From positions 1 to 64,000 of the forward strand of contig WTJI01000044.1 of NCBI GenBank assembly GCA_011524905.1: DNA of 64,000 nucleotides, read 5' to 3'. Positions 5,607-14,062 of this stretch are shown in pieces. Both the position numbers and the translations under genes were made by a program. The notes under the pieces are model-generated. The model did no database searches. It saw only the letters and a list, made by a program, of their open reading frames with translations, and was not told the origin of the DNA. Source of the stretch: Flavobacteriales bacterium. Its GTDB lineage: Bacteria > Bacteroidota > Bacteroidia > Flavobacteriales > Flavobacteriaceae. The first letter of the stretch is position 1. Every line of letters starts with the position of its first letter.

Positions 5607-6923
5607 TTAATGGATTTTCTTTGCCAAATCCATAGCCTTTCTATCAGATAGGCTCGCAACAAAACAAGAGGCATTTAGTAAGGTTGCATATAGACTTTCT
5701 TCGACAAAGGGCGTTCCTTCTGGAATCAATTGCAACAATAATTTATCATAAGAATTGGCTTTTCCATGATAAGTTCTTGCAGCTGCCGTTACAAATACAT
5801 GAAGCAATTTTGACAGTACCTGATAGCCAAGAATTTCTTTCTCAACCACCTCATCCGATTGATAGACTTTATCCACACTGATGGCAATAATATCACTAAT
5901 CTGAGCTTGATAGCGGCACTTATCTAGCAAAGCTTGCCCATAGTTTCCATTTAAAATAGCTTCTTCATTTTCAAGAAATTGATGAAGTGCTTCCTGGATA
6001 AGGCTATTAATGGCCAAGGCCCGGAGGTAGCTCAAGCGCTGGGGTCGATTTTCTAAAGCAGCGTATTTTTTGGTATCGATATAATCCTGTACCAATTGTA
6101 CAAGATATTCCAAAGCGTAGGATTCAGGAATCCATCCTAAATTAATCCCATCTTCAAAATCGATAATAGTGTAACAAATGTCATCTGCTGCTTCAACAAG
6201 ATATGCCAAAGGATGGCGGATGAAATTACCCTTTTGTACCAAGCCCAATTCATTTGCTACTGCTGTAAACATGGCTTGGTCATATTGAAAATATCCAAAT
6301 TTTTTGTCAGCAACATGATTAGAAGGTCGGTGGGGTAGACTTCCTTTAGGGTATTTCATGTAGGCTCCCAGAGTAGCATAACTCAACCGCAAACCACCGG
6401 GGCTACCTGGCTGTGACTGACAGAGTATTTTGAAGCCATTGGCATTACCTTCGAACTGGCAAAGATCTTCGTATTCAGCAGCCGATAGCTTCTCTTTATA
6501 CAATTGTCCTTCGCCCTCCCTAAAATAATGTCCGATGGCTTTTTCGCCACTGTGACCAAAGGGAGGATTGCCGATGTCGTGAGCCAGAGCAGCAGCTGCT
6601 ACTATGGCACCAAAATCATTGGCTTGGTAGCCCAAACTAGCACCCAAATGGGGGTATTTTTCTAATAAAGCCTGACCGGCTAAACGTCCCAAACTACGGC
6701 CGACAACTGATACCTCAAGACTATGGGTCAAACGAGTATGAACAAAGTCTTTTTGGGAAAAAGGAATGACTTGTGTTTTATCTTGTAAACTTCTAAAAGC
6801 AGCCGAAAAAACAATTCGGTCATAATCAACTTCGAATCCTAATCGGGTATTGTCTTGCTCTTTGCGGAGACGCTTATGCTTGTCGCCATATCTTTTCAGT
6901 GATAAGAGGGTATCCCAACTCAT
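5607..6923 (-). CDS. dgt: deoxyguanosinetriphosphate triphosphohydrolase (dGTPase)
   Basis: RLRKEQDNTRLGFEVDYDRIVFSAAFRSLQDKTQVIP, TRLTHSLEVSVVGRSLG and LAHDIGNPPFGHSGE HD-domain dGTPase motifs. Confidence 0.92.
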   Translation of the reverse strand: MSWDTLLSLKRYGDKHKRLRKEQDNTRLGFEVDYDRIVFSAAFRSLQDKTQVIPFSQKDFVHTRLTHSLEVSVVGRSLGRLAGQALLEKYPHLGASLGYQANDFGAIVAAAALAHDIGNPPFGHSGEKAIGHYFREGEGQLYKEKLSAAEYEDLCQFEGNANGFKILCQSQPGSPGGLRLSYATLGAYMKYPKGSLPHRPSNHVADKKFGYFQYDQAMFTAVANELGLVQKGNFIRHPLAYLVEAADDICYTIIDFEDGINLGWIPESYALEYLVQLVQDYIDTKKYAALENRPQRLSYLRALAINSLIQEALHQFLENEEAILNGNYGQALLDKCRYQAQISDIIAISVDKVYQSDEVVEKEILGYQVLSKLLHVFVTAAARTYHGKANSYDKLLLQLIPEGTPFVEESLYATLLNASCFVASLSDRKAMDLAKKIH

Positions 6924-6988
6924 AGGGCAAATCTAATTCATTCGTCGCAAAGACTTGTGTTAAGACAAGGTTATTTCGATTTTTTAGC

Positions 6989-7038
6989 TTAACGGTTTAT
7001 TAGCTTTTGACAGTAGAAGACTTAACAATAACCTAAAA
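6989..7038 (+). promoter_or_regulatory. putative Pho-box-like direct-repeat array upstream of the lipoprotein gene
   Basis: 11-bp register: TTAACG (6989), TTAGCT (7000), CAGTAG (7011, degenerate), TTAACA (7022), CTAAAA (7033). Followed 20 bp later by TACATTTG (7059-7066). Confidence 0.45.
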
Positions 7039-7058
7039 AAAAGTGAAGATAAGCCCTA

Positions 7059-7066
7059 TACATTTG
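7059..7066 (+). promoter_or_regulatory. -7 promoter element (TAnnTTTG) for the lipoprotein gene
   Basis: TACATTTG matches the Bacteroidota -7 consensus; no -33 TTG at 17-23 bp, suggesting activator dependence. Confidence 0.5.
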
Positions 7067-7084
7067 TATAAAAATATGATTAAA

Positions 7085-8431
7085 ATGAAAAAATTAAAAG
7101 CACTTTTTATTAGCACATTCGTAGCAATTACTTTTAGTGCATGTTCTGAAGAAGAACCCATCATCGAATATGTAGAAGTACCAGGCGAAACAGTTACAGT
7201 CGTAGAAACTGTGGTAGAAACTGTTGTTGAAACACCAAATACCAATACAATTGGTTCTGATGGCGGCATTACCAAAATCACTGAAGACCAAACATGGTCA
7301 AATGATCAAATCCATATCATTCGTGGAAAAGTAGTCATCATGTCTGGTACTACCCTGACTGTCGAAGCAGGAGCAATTATCAAAGCTGGAGAAGGGCAAG
7401 ATAATGATGCTACTGCGTTGGTTGTTGCCAGAGGCGCAACCATCAATATGAATGGTACAGCAGACAACCCTATCATCATGACCGATATCAATGATAACAT
7501 AAATTACGGTTCACCATCTACCAATCGAAATGCATTGGATCGCGGTAAATGGGGTGGTTTAATCGTTTTGGGTAATGCAAAAATATCTGATGCTGTTGAC
7601 GAAAAATTGATAGAAGGTGTTTTGGCCATTGAAGGTGAAGACTGGAATTTCTATGGCGGATCTGATAATGAAGATAATTCTGGAAGTATCCAATATGTAT
7701 CTATTCGTCACTCTGGAACTCAAGTAGCTCCAGATGTTGAATTACAAGGCTTGACCCTTGGTGGTGTTGGTCGGGGTACTACTATTGAAAATATTGAAAT
7801 CGTTGCAAGTAAAGATGACGGTGTTGAATTTTTTGGCGGCACAGTCGATGTAACCAATCTTTTGGTCTGGAATCAGTTTGATGATGGTATCGATATTGAT
7901 ATGGCTTACAGTGGAACCATCAACAATGCTGTTGTTGAGTACGCTGCCGATTCTGATGGTGCTTTTGAAATTGATGGAGCCAAGGACATCAGCTATGAAG
8001 CGCAAAACACCATATCAGGATTGACTGTCTATGGTCGATATACTGATGAAGCTTCTGACAGCGACCAACTCGGGCGTGTTCGAGAAAATATTCAGATCAA
8101 AATGATGGATGTGCTTTACAAAGGAGCTGCTGCAGAGGCCTCAAAGTTTGAAAAATTTGGAGACAACAATGGTAACTATAAAAACATAACCACGCCACGT
8201 ACTTTTGGAACAGATCCCAACGGTTCAGAAGATATCATATTTAGTGATTTTTATTTCGATGGTGCATTTGTTCAAGCAACTTTGGTGGGACCCAATACCG
8301 AAAATTCTGATAGTGCTCGTGACATCAATAGTACTTTTGAAAACTGGGCTACTATTGGCACATCACCAGCGGCAGACCAAGGAGCTGATGAGTCTGTCTT
8401 TGCATGGACTTGGTGGGCTCAAAGCAACTAG
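7085..8431 (+). CDS. lipoprotein with predicted right-handed beta-helix fold
   Basis: MKKLKALFISTFVAITFSAC|SEEE lipobox plus acidic residues after Cys; repetitive beta-helix-like core (GGLIVLGNAKI, DDGVEFFGGTVDVTNLLVWNQFDDGIDID). Alternative ATG at 7076. Confidence 0.75.
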   Translation: MKKLKALFISTFVAITFSACSEEEPIIEYVEVPGETVTVVETVVETVVETPNTNTIGSDGGITKITEDQTWSNDQIHIIRGKVVIMSGTTLTVEAGAIIKAGEGQDNDATALVVARGATINMNGTADNPIIMTDINDNINYGSPSTNRNALDRGKWGGLIVLGNAKISDAVDEKLIEGVLAIEGEDWNFYGGSDNEDNSGSIQYVSIRHSGTQVAPDVELQGLTLGGVGRGTTIENIEIVASKDDGVEFFGGTVDVTNLLVWNQFDDGIDIDMAYSGTINNAVVEYAADSDGAFEIDGAKDISYEAQNTISGLTVYGRYTDEASDSDQLGRVRENIQIKMMDVLYKGAAAEASKFEKFGDNNGNYKNITTPRTFGTDPNGSEDIIFSDFYFDGAFVQATLVGPNTENSDSARDINSTFENWATIGTSPAADQGADESVFAWTWWAQSN

Positions 8432-8455
8432 TGCTTCTTAATCATATCTTAACAC

Positions 8456-8492
8456 AAGCGTTCGTTTCTATTTACATTGGAGGCGAACGCTT
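8456..8492 (+). terminator. stem-loop (terminator or attenuator) between the lipoprotein and TonB receptor genes
   Basis: Perfect 9-bp stem AAGCGTTCG (8456-8464) / CGAACGCTT (8484-8492) followed by TGTTTAATTT. Confidence 0.55.
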
Positions 8493-8508
8493 TGTTTAAT
8501 TTCGCGCC

Positions 8509-11328
8509 ATGAAAAAGCTTACCTTATTTGTTTGTTGCTTATTTACAATTGTCGGCTATGCTCAACACACTATTGAAGGCAAAGTCATCGATGGCGAATT
8601 TAGCGATATCCTCCCTTTTGCCAACATCCAATTGATTCAAATTGCCCCTGCCGAAAGTACGGACGGAACCACCTCAGATTTTGATGGAAATTTTGAGTTT
8701 GCCGACCTGGCAGATGGAGAATATGAATTGGAGGTTTCCTTTGTAGGCTACAATAAGAAAAGAATAACTGGCATCACAATAAACGATAAGAATACCACTC
8801 AAATCTTTGAAATTGTCTTAGAACCTTCTTCTTCTGAATTAGAAGAAGTAATAGTCACTTCATCTGCCAAAAATAATACGGCTAATGCCGTATTGAATAT
8901 ACAGAAAAGATCTGCTGTGCTTCTGGATGGATTGTCTCTACAATCCATACGAAAAGCTGGTGATAATGATATAGCTTCTGCCGTAAGAAGAGTCCCTGGC
9001 ATATCTATTGAAGACGGGAAATATGTTTACGTAAGAGGACTTGGTGATCGTTACTCCAAGACGACACTTAATGGGCTTGAAGTTCCTGGTCTAGACCCCG
9101 ATAAAAATACCCTTCAGCTAGATATTTTCCCAACCAATCTCATCGGAAATATCCAAGTAATTAAATCGGCTGCTGCCAAACTAGATGCTGACTTTACAGG
9201 AGGTATCGTAAATATAGAATTAAAAGACTTTGCCAATACACCCGAATATAGCTTGAGTATTGGTATGTCATACAACCCCAAAATGCACTTCCAAAGTAAC
9301 TATATTTTTGACCAACGTAGCAGTACAGATTTTTTAGGTTATGATGGTGGCTACCGAAAACTACGTATTGCCCGTCGTGCCAATATCCCAGAGCCTTCCC
9401 GGTCTAACCCCGCTACCAATTTGGCATATAATTACACCCAACTCCTCAGTCCCAATCTAGAGCCGCTGACGGGAACTAGTTTTATGAACTATAACTTTGG
9501 TTTTTCTACCAGCAATAGTTTCAGTCTTGAAAACGGAAATAAACTCGGATACATCGCTAGTGTCAACTACAGAAGTAATACCACTTTTTTAGATGATTTT
9601 CTCAACAGCACCTATATTTTCAATCAAAGAGGCTTTTCACTCAATAGCCAAAACGACGGCTTGTTGGGAAGAGAAGAAAAATTTGTCAATCTCCTCACTG
9701 GAATAACCTACAGTGGTACACAATCCAAATACAAACTCAACTTTTTGTTCATTCAAAACGGAGAATCCAATGTACGCCAAGGGGGCTTTTCCGAATTTGT
9801 ATCCGACGATTTTTTTGGTTTAGGTAACTTTATTACCTATACACAAAGAACCATCCTGTCTTTGCCGTTTTCGGCTAAATTCAATTTAAATGAAGGTGAG
9901 AGCACACTAGAACTTAAAGCCAACGCGACCAAAGCACTTGTTTACGATAAAGATTTTAAAGTTACCGTTTTTGAAATTTTAGATAATGACCGATATGCCC
10001 TATCACCCAATGGAGCTGGATTACCACAACGGATTTGGCGTGATTTGGATGAAGATGTTTACAATGCAAAAGTGGATTACAATACCAAGTATTCGATAAA
10101 TGACAGCGAAGTAAAACTAGAAGCAGGAGCTGCCTATTTGTTCAAAAATCGTGTTTTTGGTACCGACTATTACACCATTAACACTGTGGGTTCTTCACTT
10201 TATCTTAATGGGATTGCCAATAATGTTCTTGAAGAACCCAATCTTTGGTCTTATGAACGAGGACGAGGGAGTTATGTGTCAGGTAGCTTTCAAGAAGAAA
10301 ACCAATTTGACTCTGAGATCAATAAAATAAGTGCCTATGTTTCAGGAGAAGCAAATCTAAGCACTAAACTAAAAGGTGTTGTCGGGCTTAGATTTGAAAA
10401 ATATAAGTTAATCTACACTGGGCAATCGCTCAACCAAACCGTCTATGACAGAGCTACTTTTCTCGATCGCTCTGATTTCTTTCCCTCCCTAAACTTAATC
10501 TACACCCTGACAGAAGACCAAAAGATAAGGGCTTCTGCTTACCGAACTACGGCGCGTCCTTCATTTAAAGAAAACTCAACTGCTGTTATTTTAGATCCAA
10601 TCACAGGAACACGATTCTATGGCAATCCGAATGTTCAGCCTTCCCTGATTATGAATTATGATCTCCGCTTTGAGAATTATGGTAAAAATGGGGAGTTTTT
10701 TGCTGTGAGTAGCTTTGTTAAACAGTTTGATAGTCCTATTGAAATTGTCTTATTCGATCGCTCAACACCCAATGTTTTTATTGCGCGAAACAATCCAAGT
10801 GCCACTGTAATAGGGGCCGAATTCGAAGCTAGAAAAAACTTTATTGCGACAGACAAAAGAAAACTAAGTCTTAATACCAATCTTTCTATTATCGAATCTC
10901 GACAAATTATGGGGGATATCGAAAAAAATATTAGGCTGCTGCGTCAACCTGTAGATGAAGAATTTAAAAACTACCGTCAATTGCAAGGACAGGCACCCTA
11001 TATTATCAATGCAGGGTTTTCTTTCGAAGATATAGAAAACAACTACGAAATGAATTTAATATTCAATCGACAAGGAAAGTCGCTACAGATTGTAGGAAAT
11101 GACGATGTCCCCGATGTTTTCTCAATGCCTTTCAATTCTCTAAACTTTACATTTGAAAAAAAATTCAATCAAGTTGACGGAGTAAATAAAACATTACGCC
11201 TGCGGGTAAATAATATTTTAAACGACCAAAGAGAATCCCAATACGAATTTTTTGACTTCGAAACCCAGCCCTTTTCATACAGAGATTTTGGGACAACTTT
11301 CTCACTTAGTTATGGAATCAAGTTTTAA
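8509..11328 (+). CDS. TonB-dependent receptor with CarboxypepD_reg-like N-terminal domain
   Basis: Signal peptide; HTIEGKVIDGEFSDILPFANIQL; plug domain (RRVPGISIEDGKYVYVRGLGDRYSKTTLNGLEVPG); C-terminal aromatic beta-strand ending SYGIKF. Confidence 0.92.
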   Translation: MKKLTLFVCCLFTIVGYAQHTIEGKVIDGEFSDILPFANIQLIQIAPAESTDGTTSDFDGNFEFADLADGEYELEVSFVGYNKKRITGITINDKNTTQIFEIVLEPSSSELEEVIVTSSAKNNTANAVLNIQKRSAVLLDGLSLQSIRKAGDNDIASAVRRVPGISIEDGKYVYVRGLGDRYSKTTLNGLEVPGLDPDKNTLQLDIFPTNLIGNIQVIKSAAAKLDADFTGGIVNIELKDFANTPEYSLSIGMSYNPKMHFQSNYIFDQRSSTDFLGYDGGYRKLRIARRANIPEPSRSNPATNLAYNYTQLLSPNLEPLTGTSFMNYNFGFSTSNSFSLENGNKLGYIASVNYRSNTTFLDDFLNSTYIFNQRGFSLNSQNDGLLGREEKFVNLLTGITYSGTQSKYKLNFLFIQNGESNVRQGGFSEFVSDDFFGLGNFITYTQRTILSLPFSAKFNLNEGESTLELKANATKALVYDKDFKVTVFEILDNDRYALSPNGAGLPQRIWRDLDEDVYNAKVDYNTKYSINDSEVKLEAGAAYLFKNRVFGTDYYTINTVGSSLYLNGIANNVLEEPNLWSYERGRGSYVSGSFQEENQFDSEINKISAYVSGEANLSTKLKGVVGLRFEKYKLIYTGQSLNQTVYDRATFLDRSDFFPSLNLIYTLTEDQKIRASAYRTTARPSFKENSTAVILDPITGTRFYGNPNVQPSLIMNYDLRFENYGKNGEFFAVSSFVKQFDSPIEIVLFDRSTPNVFIARNNPSATVIGAEFEARKNFIATDKRKLSLNTNLSIIESRQIMGDIEKNIRLLRQPVDEEFKNYRQLQGQAPYIINAGFSFEDIENNYEMNLIFNRQGKSLQIVGNDDVPDVFSMPFNSLNFTFEKKFNQVDGVNKTLRLRVNNILNDQRESQYEFFDFETQPFSYRDFGTTFSLSYGIKF

Positions 11329-11360
11329 ATGCTAAATTTTATTTGCATTTTTGTTTTCCG

Positions 11361-13628
11361 ATGGACAATATTTATGCTTTAATAATTATCACTTTAAGTC
11401 TACTTGCCATTGGTGACTTAATCGTGGGGGTCAGTAACGATGCAGTGAATTTTTTGAACTCTGCCATCGGTTCCAAAGTATTTTCTTTCCGAAATATCAT
11501 GATTTTCGCAAGCTTGGGTATTGCTTGTGGGGCCATGTTTTCAAGTGGAATGATGGAGGTTGCGAGAAAAGGTATTTTTAATCCGCAAGCTTTTTTCTTC
11601 GACGAAATCATTTTTATTTTCATGGCTGTGATGGTAACAGACATTCTGTTGCTTGACTTTTTCAATACCTTAGGCATGCCCACCTCTACCACAGTTTCCA
11701 TTGTGTTCGAATTATTGGGCGCTGCCGTTGTCATGGCTTTGATCAAGATCTTTGATAATGGAGAGAGCTTAGCAGATTTACCCAACTACATCAATACCGC
11801 AAAAGCTGTACAAATTATTTTGGGTATTTTACTCTCCGTTGGGATTGCCTTTACTGTAGGCGCACTTGTTCAATGGCTTTCCCGTGTCATTCTTACTTAT
11901 CGATTTGATGACAAACCAGCAACCTACAACGCTTTTTTTGGAGCCCTTTCTTTGGCTGCCATTTGTAACTTTATTCTAATCAAAGGACTCAAAGGTACTG
12001 CTTTTGCCAGCACTGCTTTTGATAGCTTAGGTGGCTTGACCTTAAATCAGTTTTTAGAAACCCAGGTGCTGTTGGTCAACTTAATCAATATCACTTTTTG
12101 GTTTATCATCAGTTGGTCCTTGATCAAAGTTTTTAAGATTGATATTTACAAACTCATCATTGGCATTGGAACATTTGCTTTGGCACTTGCCTTTGCGGGA
12201 AATGATTTGGTAAATTTCATTGGGGTACCGATCGCTGCTTATCAATCTTATTTGGCTTGGATCGATTCTGGAGTGGCTGCTGAAGCTTTTGGAATGGGTG
12301 TTTTACAGAAAAAAGTACCTACACCTACCTTCTTTTTGTTGGCCTCGGGTGTCATTATGATTTTGACACTATGGTTTTCATCCAAAGCCCGAAGGGTTGT
12401 CAAAACCTCATTAGATCTATCAGATCAAAATACAACTAGAGAGCGTTTTCGCCCAAATTTTTTAGCACGCGCTATGGTGCGCCTGTTCGCAAACACCAAT
12501 GCCCTTTTGACCCATTATATTCCAGCCAATACAAGAAATAAAATCAGTCAAGCTTTTGCTTTTGATGCAGTAATAGACTTGTCAGACAAAAATCGGCCTG
12601 CTTTTGACCGTTTACGGGCTTGTATCAACCTTGTTGTTGCGGCTGTACTGATTTCTATCGCCACCTCTCTAAAATTGCCCTTATCGACTACCTATGTTAC
12701 ATTTATGGTGGCTATGGGTACTTCATTGGCCGACAGGGCTTGGGGTACGGATAGTGCTGTTTATCGCGTTGCGGGGGTTTTAAATGTTATTGGCGGTTGG
12801 TTTTTTACGGCCATTAGTGCGTTTGTGGTCTGCGGATCGATTCTCTATTTGATCAACTTAGGTGGCCCAATTACCATTGCCATCATTGTTTTTTTAATTC
12901 TGATTATTGTAGGACGCAACTTCATTAAAACAAATAAAACGGCGCAAATCGCCAGAAAACGTTTTCAAGTCAAGTCAGAAAGTAAATCACTACAAGGAGT
13001 AATTCAAGAATCTGGCGATAATATTACTGGGATTTTTGAGCAAAGTATTTCCCTGTACAAGGATATGGTAGAGGGACTCGCAGCAGATGATTTCAGAAAG
13101 TTACTTCGTATTAGAAAAAAAGCAGAAGACTTAAAGGTAGCTGTAGAAGAATTGCGCAATTCACTATTTTTCTTTATCAAGTCTATGGAAGAAACCAGTT
13201 TTGTAGCGAGTAACTACTATATCAACTTACTAGGATTGCTACACGACTTGACCGAGGATATCCAGTACATGACTAAAATTAGTCACCGACACTCCTACAA
13301 TAATCATAAAAAAATCAGTGATTTTCAACACGACGATTTACTAACATTACTCTTCCAGTTGGAATTTGTTTTTACCATTTCAATTGAAGCCTTTCATGAA
13401 AGAATAAGTGAAGAAGAATTTCAAAAAGTAGTAAACCAAAAAGAAACGACTTTTAGTTTGATCCAGAATAAAATTGAGCGGCAAATAATTCGGACCAGAG
13501 AAGCTGAAACAAGCTCAAAAAATACGGTTTTATATTTCAACTTGTTGACGCGAACCAAGGATTTGATTCAGCACAAATTCGAAATCGTAGAGGAATTTTA
13601 TGAATTAATACAAGTAGGAAAAAACTAG
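11361..13628 (+). CDS. inorganic phosphate transporter, PiT family, with C-terminal PhoU-like helical domain
   Basis: GVSNDAVNFLNSAIGS and AFAGNDLVNFIGVPIAA are PiT signature repeats; the C-terminal ~200 aa are helical and PhoU-like. The ORF-track start at 11343 is TTG; ATG at 11361. Confidence 0.9.
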   Translation: MDNIYALIIITLSLLAIGDLIVGVSNDAVNFLNSAIGSKVFSFRNIMIFASLGIACGAMFSSGMMEVARKGIFNPQAFFFDEIIFIFMAVMVTDILLLDFFNTLGMPTSTTVSIVFELLGAAVVMALIKIFDNGESLADLPNYINTAKAVQIILGILLSVGIAFTVGALVQWLSRVILTYRFDDKPATYNAFFGALSLAAICNFILIKGLKGTAFASTAFDSLGGLTLNQFLETQVLLVNLINITFWFIISWSLIKVFKIDIYKLIIGIGTFALALAFAGNDLVNFIGVPIAAYQSYLAWIDSGVAAEAFGMGVLQKKVPTPTFFLLASGVIMILTLWFSSKARRVVKTSLDLSDQNTTRERFRPNFLARAMVRLFANTNALLTHYIPANTRNKISQAFAFDAVIDLSDKNRPAFDRLRACINLVVAAVLISIATSLKLPLSTTYVTFMVAMGTSLADRAWGTDSAVYRVAGVLNVIGGWFFTAISAFVVCGSILYLINLGGPITIAIIVFLILIIVGRNFIKTNKTAQIARKRFQVKSESKSLQGVIQESGDNITGIFEQSISLYKDMVEGLAADDFRKLLRIRKKAEDLKVAVEELRNSLFFFIKSMEETSFVASNYYINLLGLLHDLTEDIQYMTKISHRHSYNNHKKISDFQHDDLLTLLFQLEFVFTISIEAFHERISEEEFQKVVNQKETTFSLIQNKIERQIIRTREAETSSKNTVLYFNLLTRTKDLIQHKFEIVEEFYELIQVGKN

Positions 13629-13975
13629 TTGACGGCTACCAACGCACCTTTTTCCCACACAACTGCACCAGTAGCTTTATTATCTTTAAACGTTACTTCG
13701 GTCATTTTACTCATATGCCAAAAAAACCATTTACCCGTTTTTTTTCCATTCAAAAATTGACCCTGAGCTAGTTTGCTTCCTGTTTCAGAGTAGCTCACCC
13801 AGTCACCGTGTAGTTTACTATTTTTAAAGTACCCTTTTTCAGCAATTTGTCCATTGTCATAATACTTTACGACACGAATCAGATTGCGTTCTTTTTTGTA
13901 CTCTGTTCTATTTTGTGCATATCCAGAATGAAGTCCAAGACCTAATACTACTAAAGAAATCAAAAACTTTTTCAT
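13625..13975 (-). CDS. YwqK/MORN-repeat-like exported protein
   Basis: 116 aa with signal peptide; YYDNGQIAEKGYFKNSKLHGDWVSYSETGSKLAQGQFLNGKKTGKWFFWH repeats. Confidence 0.8.
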   Translation of the reverse strand: MKKFLISLVVLGLGLHSGYAQNRTEYKKERNLIRVVKYYDNGQIAEKGYFKNSKLHGDWVSYSETGSKLAQGQFLNGKKTGKWFFWHMSKMTEVTFKDNKATGAVVWEKGALVAVN

Positions 13976-13997
13976 AAATGTTGGTTTTGAATTTAAT

Positions 13998-14005
13998 CAA
14001 AGATA
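13998..14005 (-). promoter_or_regulatory. -7 promoter element for the YwqK-like gene
   Basis: Minus strand TATCTTTG, an exact TAnnTTTG match 22 bp upstream of the ATG. Confidence 0.55.
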
Positions 14006-14024
14006 ACAATTATTTCATTTCTGC

Positions 14025-14052
14025 ATAACTTTTACGTAACATTATCTTAACA
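14025..14052 (-). promoter_or_regulatory. putative Pho-box-like array upstream of the YwqK-like gene
   Basis: Plus strand ATAACT-N5-GTAACA-N5-TTAACA (14025, 14036, 14047): three half-sites in exact 11-bp register, 19 bp upstream of the -7 motif. Confidence 0.5.
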
Positions 14053-14062
14053 TAAGGAGTCA

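Follow-up and report, generated by a model that had tools for sequence, protein, structure and literature searches.

How Bacteroidota lacking PstSABC take up phosphorus at the outer membrane is an open question, which we address here through a compact flavobacterial locus that pairs a surface lipoprotein with a TonB-dependent receptor (TBDR) next to a phosphate transporter gene. An earlier note on this DNA had read the locus as a Pho-regulated system for phosphorus capture at the outer membrane, in which a beta-helix lipoprotein may, by analogy, stand in place of SusD. Linkage to phoBR and PiT genes, a shared motif of 11-bp period, and the published phosphate (Pi) starvation induction of homologues support this reading as largely right. 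Since this type of pair has already been described (ElpS/CC0171, and FI to FIII with TBDTs), the idea was correct in substance and not new as a kind; what is new here is the promoter code, the widely conserved linkage of the pair to phosphate-control genes, the PhoU-fused PiT as sole importer detected, and the acidic ladder of the lipoprotein.

Gene content of the locus

The window, i.e., the whole 64-kb stretch of DNA analyzed, is contig C48 of a 1.98-Mb Flavobacteriaceae metagenome-assembled genome (MAG) that is about 90% complete. The nearest named relatives of the host, a marine flavobacterium, are uncultured Flavobacteriaceae MAGs, one of them from the North Sea. All four open reading frames (ORFs) named earlier, for a lipoprotein, a TonB receptor, PiT, and a YwqK/MORN-like protein, were found at the positions given for them, and profile hits agree (Table 1). 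The lipoprotein and TBDR genes adjoin each other in the same direction, and a gap of only 32 bp separates the TBDR gene from PiT. These three genes are probably cotranscribed as one operon ending in PiT-PhoU.

Table 1. Genes and predicted promoter elements of the locus (window coordinates)
Feature	Position	Strand	Remarks
HD-domain dGTP triphosphohydrolase-like (dGTPase-like) gene	5607..6923	-	Divergent; conserved left border; 5' Pho-box-like region common to this gene and the lipoprotein gene
Strong Pho-box-like site	6957..6974	-	ATAACCTTGTCTTAACAC; GTGTTAAGACAAGGTTAT in lipoprotein direction; 17.4 bits with the matrix trained without the genus
Weaker TTAAC-type half-sites	6989..7027	+	TTAACG at 6989, TTAGCT at 7000, TTAACA at 7022; matrix scores 10.4 bits or less
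Putative Bacteroidota-type -7 element	7059..7066	+	TACATTTG; TAnATTTGT conserved in genus alignment
Surface beta-helix lipoprotein (predicted), 448 aa	7085..8431	+	Lipobox Cys20, then SEEE
TBDR, 939 aa	8509..11328	+	CarbopepD_reg_2 N-terminal domain, plug, and barrel
PiT phosphate transporter fused to PhoU-like C-terminal domain, 755 aa	11361..13628	+	
MORN_2/YwqK-like small exported protein, 116 aa	13625..13975	-	Convergent to PiT
Putative -7 element of YwqK-like gene	13998..14005	-	TATCTTTG; from sequence and congeners
Strong Pho-box-like site, three half-sites in 11-bp register	14025..14053	+	Upstream of YwqK-like gene; ATGTTAAGATAATGTTACGTAAAAGTTAT in its direction

The PiT-PhoU protein and phosphate import in the host genome

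The transporter carries a PHO4 domain (PF01384, 83 bits in the Pfam profile search), and its predicted fold matches the solved PiT structure 6l85 (TM 0.71). The C-terminal third of the model, a domain spanning about residues 544-754 (12990-13622), matches PhoU 4q25 (TM 0.79), which bears out the earlier PiT/PhoU assignment; the Pfam PhoU cut-off (PF01895) is passed by the C-terminus of a homologue and missed by the window protein itself. A sequence search of the PDB with PiT returned no match. The draft genome, about 90% complete, holds one PiT and one PhoBR pair, with PhoB encoded at G000:C14:63801-64481; no NptA-type transporter was found in it, nor any PstB over the cut-off, which 13 of 14 control genomes pass. 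Therefore, the PiT of this module is the only phosphate importer detected, although another may sit outside a draft of this completeness. Such a single-importer genome agrees with the report of plant-associated Bacteroidetes without PstSABC (PMC8115612). In a relative, a PiT-like ORF of 429 aa next to a porin gene (L087, G002:C23:3943-5145) matches the window PiT over residues 1-162 and 506-747 alone; it is either a PiT that has lost an internal part or an artefact of assembly.

A predicted beta-helix lipoprotein with a conserved acidic ladder

Profile searches with the lipoprotein returned no Pfam or NCBIfam family, a PG1828 match spanning the N-terminus only, and the PDB sequence search gave no match. 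The AlphaFold2 model is a parallel right-handed beta-helix (pLDDT 79, pTM 0.82), and in Foldseek it comes closest to AlgG, pectate lyase, and other enzymes of the right-handed beta-helix type, although all of these matches are weak (best E 0.008, none at E 0.001). Model and fold neighbors alike uphold the beta-helix predicted earlier. Cys20 of the lipobox is invariant, and the SEEE that follows it comes close to the surface-export signals of Bacteroidetes, in which polar and then acidic residues are found (PMC5080379).

Nine acidic residues (E219, D244, D245, E248, D266, D267, D270, E295, and D297) show 96-100% conservation across 108 lipoproteins paired with a TBDR and recur in 3/3 proteobacterial homologues. 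They return every 20-30 residues; since this is about one beta-helix coil, this acidic ladder probably stacks on one face of the modeled protein. Two readings of the face may be entertained, namely a cation-bridged site for phosphate or its esters, or a hydrolase site. An acidic surface would be unexpected for anion binding unless a cation were bound, a point against the mechanism proposed below. A solitary paralogue, conserved in the genus (L033:9177-10346 in G000:C20; also L038 and L040), has neither a TBDR nor a Pho-box-like site and was set aside as a part of the system. The ladder is not cleanly exclusive to TBDR-paired proteins, as the solitary paralogue of the genus itself keeps most of it.

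The ligand would more likely be a phosphate ester or a metal phosphate than free Pi. That the TBDR instead moves free inorganic phosphate, and that the lipoprotein scavenges Pi with high affinity, is unlikely in our judgment: the module does feed the only Pi importer detected and contains no phosphatase gene, but the usual route of free Pi is diffusion through porins, an OprP-like porin gene accompanies PiT in related loci, and the conserved lipoprotein residues are acidic rather than basic.

Linkage of the lipoprotein-TBDR pair to phosphate genes

The lipoprotein family is present in 50 of 60 related genomes. Two layouts recur across Flavobacteriales in the 20-kb stretches fetched from relatives: layout A, dGTPase-like < pair > YwqK < Porin_O_P > PiT > nrdA < nrdB; and layout B, phoR < phoB < pair >. 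The window corresponds to layout A without the porin. Cultivable relatives that share this locus include Winogradskyella, Aequorivita, and Lacinutrix. The phoBR genes of the host lie elsewhere in the genome with no pair beside them, in a setting whose flanking genes look the same as those of layout B by size and order. One genome (G005) combines both slots, with phoBR, pair, porin, and PiT in a single cluster. In another MAG, two versions of the dGTPase-lipoprotein-TBDR arrangement occur on different contigs (L036 and L037, in G002:C35 and C36); these duplicates probably reflect a strain mixture or a duplication.

A survey of gene neighborhoods, as the earlier note had proposed, covered 46 relatives that gave a strong match and found the pair within 12 kb of phoB in 19 of them, of PiT in 18, and of either in 35, against a chance expectation of about 1.5% per genome. 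This linkage, together with the motif statistics given below, led us to reject a chance neighborhood. Among 80 named Bacteroidota loci, a TBDR lies alongside the lipoprotein gene in 77, phoBR in about 20, and PiT in 16. The near-constant adjacency of the pair, with an order that flips without separation, suggests that lipoprotein and TBDR are partners. A tree of 119 lipoproteins requires at least seven changes between phoB and PiT slots (loci whose sole link is to the dGTPase-like gene being counted under PiT), and the pair therefore seems to have moved repeatedly between phosphate loci.

A Pho-box-like motif across Flavobacteriales

An unbiased scan for identical 5-mers repeated at fixed spacing compared the upstream regions of 45 pairs with those of 211 other genes; among periods of 8-14, a clear excess appears at 11, where the words that repeat are TAACA/TTAAC. 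EM refinement of the repeat gave TTAAC[A/C]TTAAcTTAACAT, and starts from wrong spacings returned the same motif. The repeat, TTAAC[A/C]-N5-TTAACA with an 11-bp period, lies upstream of the lipoprotein-TBDR pair in 41 of 45 cases. A matrix trained without the genus of the window, at a threshold of 12 bits or more, found matches upstream of YwqK (20/20), porin (12/13), phoB (18/23), and PiT (12/20), as opposed to 18/351 other genes, 0/16 nrdA/nrdB, and 0/7 solitary lipoproteins; p-values for these counts overstate independence because YwqK and porin (divergent), and likewise the pair and phoB or the dGTPase-like gene, share intergenic regions, and because the sequences are related. The top matches among the other genes include ORFs that resemble PstS and NptA by their sequences. 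With the same matrix, the phoB promoter in the window's genus reaches only 9-12 bits.

Motif scoring in the host genome covered the fetched stretches. We dropped as evidence a genome-wide pattern scan that allowed two mismatches (31 matches versus 64 in the reversed control), and its two exact matches were circular because the pattern had been written from them.

Within the 64-kb window, the matrix trained without the genus places only two sites above 13 bits, 6957-6974 and 14036-14053, and these flank the module; with the genus included in the matrix, a Markov model predicts 0.05 sites of at least 17 bits per 64 kb. The first is kept in congeners (two at 20.0 bits, a third at 18.1), as is the second, which scores 18.2 bits with an in-register addition of 12.7 bits at 14025. 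The -7 element of Bacteroidota promoters has the consensus TAnnTTTG. Both strong sites have the same orientation with respect to the gene that follows, lipoprotein or YwqK, and each is followed by a putative -7 element of this type. The TTAACA-like half-sites in 11-bp register described earlier for both flanks are thus real and above chance. Those meant at the 5' end are probably the half-sites at 6989, 7000, and 7022, whose scores are weak but whose TTAAC elements, upstream of the -7 element, are conserved in the genus; the strongest 5' site falls about 15-30 bp outside the start given for the locus.

Like the E. coli Pho box and the Riemerella PhoP motif (PMC9603813), the repeat is an 11-bp-period direct repeat upstream of phosphate genes. 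It differs from the E. coli box in its half-site (TTAACA here, CTGTCAT there) and in that the sites here are predicted from sequence. DAP-seq of Riemerella PhoP, a possible counterpart of the PhoB in this genome, found TTTAACA to be the most conserved bases (PMC9603813), which resemble TTAACA. The locus thereby yields a testable Pho-box consensus for Flavobacteriales.

Further Pho-box-like sites were seen in L211 (G000:C33) at 7553-7570 (19.7 bits) and 8758-8786 (13.8 and 14.8 bits, in 11-bp register). They surround two genes, whose products are a secreted protein of 273 aa and a lipoprotein of 160 aa, and overlap predicted ORFs; the two genes are possible further members of the regulon. Directly upstream of the pair, four loci encode small secreted CarboxypepD_reg-like proteins of 118-136 aa (L041:10521-10901, L044:8823-9188, L060:14161-14517, and L091:15977-16384), each with a strong Pho-box-like site. 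The encoded product looks like a stand-alone version of the TBDR N-terminal extension domain.

The YwqK-like and dGTPase-like genes

The YwqK-like protein scores 29.3 bits against a curated MORN_2 cut-off of 29.6, and its gene is kept at the locus in most layout A genomes. The motif upstream of it, present in every one of the 20 loci, is as consistent as that of any gene examined.

At the other border, the strong 5' site lies 34 bp upstream of the start of the dGTPase-like gene, which may itself be phosphate regulated; the 6957-6974 site could serve this gene instead of, or besides, the lipoprotein gene. Most TBDRs import iron, cobalamin, or glycans, and the fold neighbors of the lipoprotein are glycan enzymes. 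It is thus conceivable that the pair imports a siderophore, cobalamin, a glycan, or another substrate without phosphorus, that its adjacency to PiT is incidental, and that the half-sites occur by chance or belong to the dGTPase-like gene. We regard this as very improbable given the phoB/PiT linkage in 35/46 relatives, the motif statistics, and the behavior of the F. johnsoniae homologues, which are induced specifically by low Pi and not by Fe or N limitation (PMC8115612).

Proposed mechanism

The module is real and, with high probability, Pho regulated, and we consider it quite likely to be an operon of the ElpS/FII-TBDR kind that serves phosphorus acquisition under PhoB control. The genes, predicted folds, linkage, motif, and absence of other detected importers have been established computationally, and induction by Pi starvation has been reported for homologous lipoproteins and for F. 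johnsoniae TBDTs. When phosphate is scarce, phospho-PhoB would bind the TTAACA half-sites at their 11-bp period, predicted occupancy including those of the locus, and switch on the three genes from lipoprotein to PiT and, as a separate unit, the YwqK-like gene. At the cell surface, the beta-helix lipoprotein would capture a phosphorus-containing ligand, probably via its invariant acidic face and perhaps a bound divalent cation, and hand it to the TonB-driven TBDR, acting like a lid as SusD and BtuG do; phosphate would then reach the cytoplasm through the PiT-PhoU protein.

A broader proposal, which we advance tentatively and with more doubt than confidence, is that these lipoproteins are a new type of TonB-receptor capture protein for phosphorus. 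The acidic ladder would bind divalent cations, which would in turn bridge to phosphate esters or metal phosphates, and the protein would cap its TBDR as SusD does for sugars and BtuG for B12, in Bacteroidota and Proteobacteria alike; the YwqK-like protein would be a further, so far unrecognized, member of the core phosphate regulon in Flavobacteriales.

Relation to known systems

In F. johnsoniae, the genes that Pi starvation strongly induces include those for the lipoproteins FI, FII, and FIII and for the TBDTs Fjoh_0545 and Fjoh_3857; Fjoh_0545 and the lipoprotein Fjoh_0546 (FII) lie in the PhoBR operon and, like Fjoh_3856/3857, respond strongly to low Pi (PMC8115612). The authors of that study relate FI to FIII to ElpS, a low-Pi lipoprotein of Caulobacter. 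In Caulobacter crescentus, phosphate starvation-induced ElpS (CC0170) is followed by the TBDR CC0171 and then by a type II secretion system (T2SS) (PMC2996285). Homologues of the window lipoprotein recur in such settings: those with phoB and a TBDR gene as neighbors are arranged like Fjoh_0544-0546, one on a Sphingomonas plasmid (E 5e-18) occupies the ElpS position in a lipoprotein-TBDR-T2SS arrangement, and one in Alteromonas adjoins phoB, phoR, and a phosphate-binding protein gene. Indirect but consistent evidence thus suggests that the module belongs with ElpS/CC0171 and FII/TBDT (PUSIV), pairs already known from Caulobacter and Flavobacterium, with the lipoprotein placed there by its homologues' gene positions and layouts.

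PUSIV (phoBR, Fjoh_0545, and Fjoh_0546) and PUSIII (FI) share with the window a TBDR, a lipoprotein of pectate-lyase fold (IPR011050), a phosphate-regulon context, and the absence of SusD. In PUSIV, the TBDT precedes the lipoprotein next to phoBR, whereas in the window the lipoprotein comes first, in a probable operon with PiT-PhoU, and phoBR lies elsewhere; PUSIII has sigma/FecR regulators and T9SS-linked proteins that the window module lacks. The ElpS/CC0171 pair resembles the window in gene order and in its surface lipoprotein, with the Sphingomonas homologue in the same position, but has no PiT in the cluster and is followed by the T2SS that releases ElpS. SusCD/PusCD and BtuB-BtuG likewise partner a TBDR with a surface-exposed lipoprotein, yet the lipoproteins there have other folds, helical in SusD and PusD (RagB/SusD Pfam families) and a beta-propeller in BtuG. 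The window lipoprotein, a predicted beta-helix with no SusD/RagB Pfam match, falls outside the SusCD/PusCD class.

The Caulobacter system also points to another way of working, in which the induced lipoprotein is released and boosts an extracellular phosphatase or hydrolase, or is itself the enzyme, while the TBDR imports the product independently and no lidded complex forms. ElpS is cleaved and released, its overproduction raises phosphatase activity in the supernatant, and cc0171 is expressed constitutively (PMC2996285), which speaks against our main reading, ElpS having been linked to phosphatase activity rather than demonstrated to be a lid. FI, a member of the family on which the acidic face is conserved, exceeds all other exoproteins of F. 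johnsoniae in abundance under Pi depletion (PMC8115612). The nearest folds of the window lipoprotein are beta-helix polysaccharide enzymes, and its conserved acidic residues could be catalytic. Release of ElpS depends on the T2SS, however, and the protein itself gave no sign of phosphatase activity (PMC2996285); moreover, the pair is nearly always adjacent, and its order flips without separation, which suggests a partnership. A shed cofactor is therefore possible but doubtful, and we favor the PhoB-controlled operon with capture at the receptor. An apparent mention of ElpS in papers on Riemerella was discarded, as the match was a journal code.
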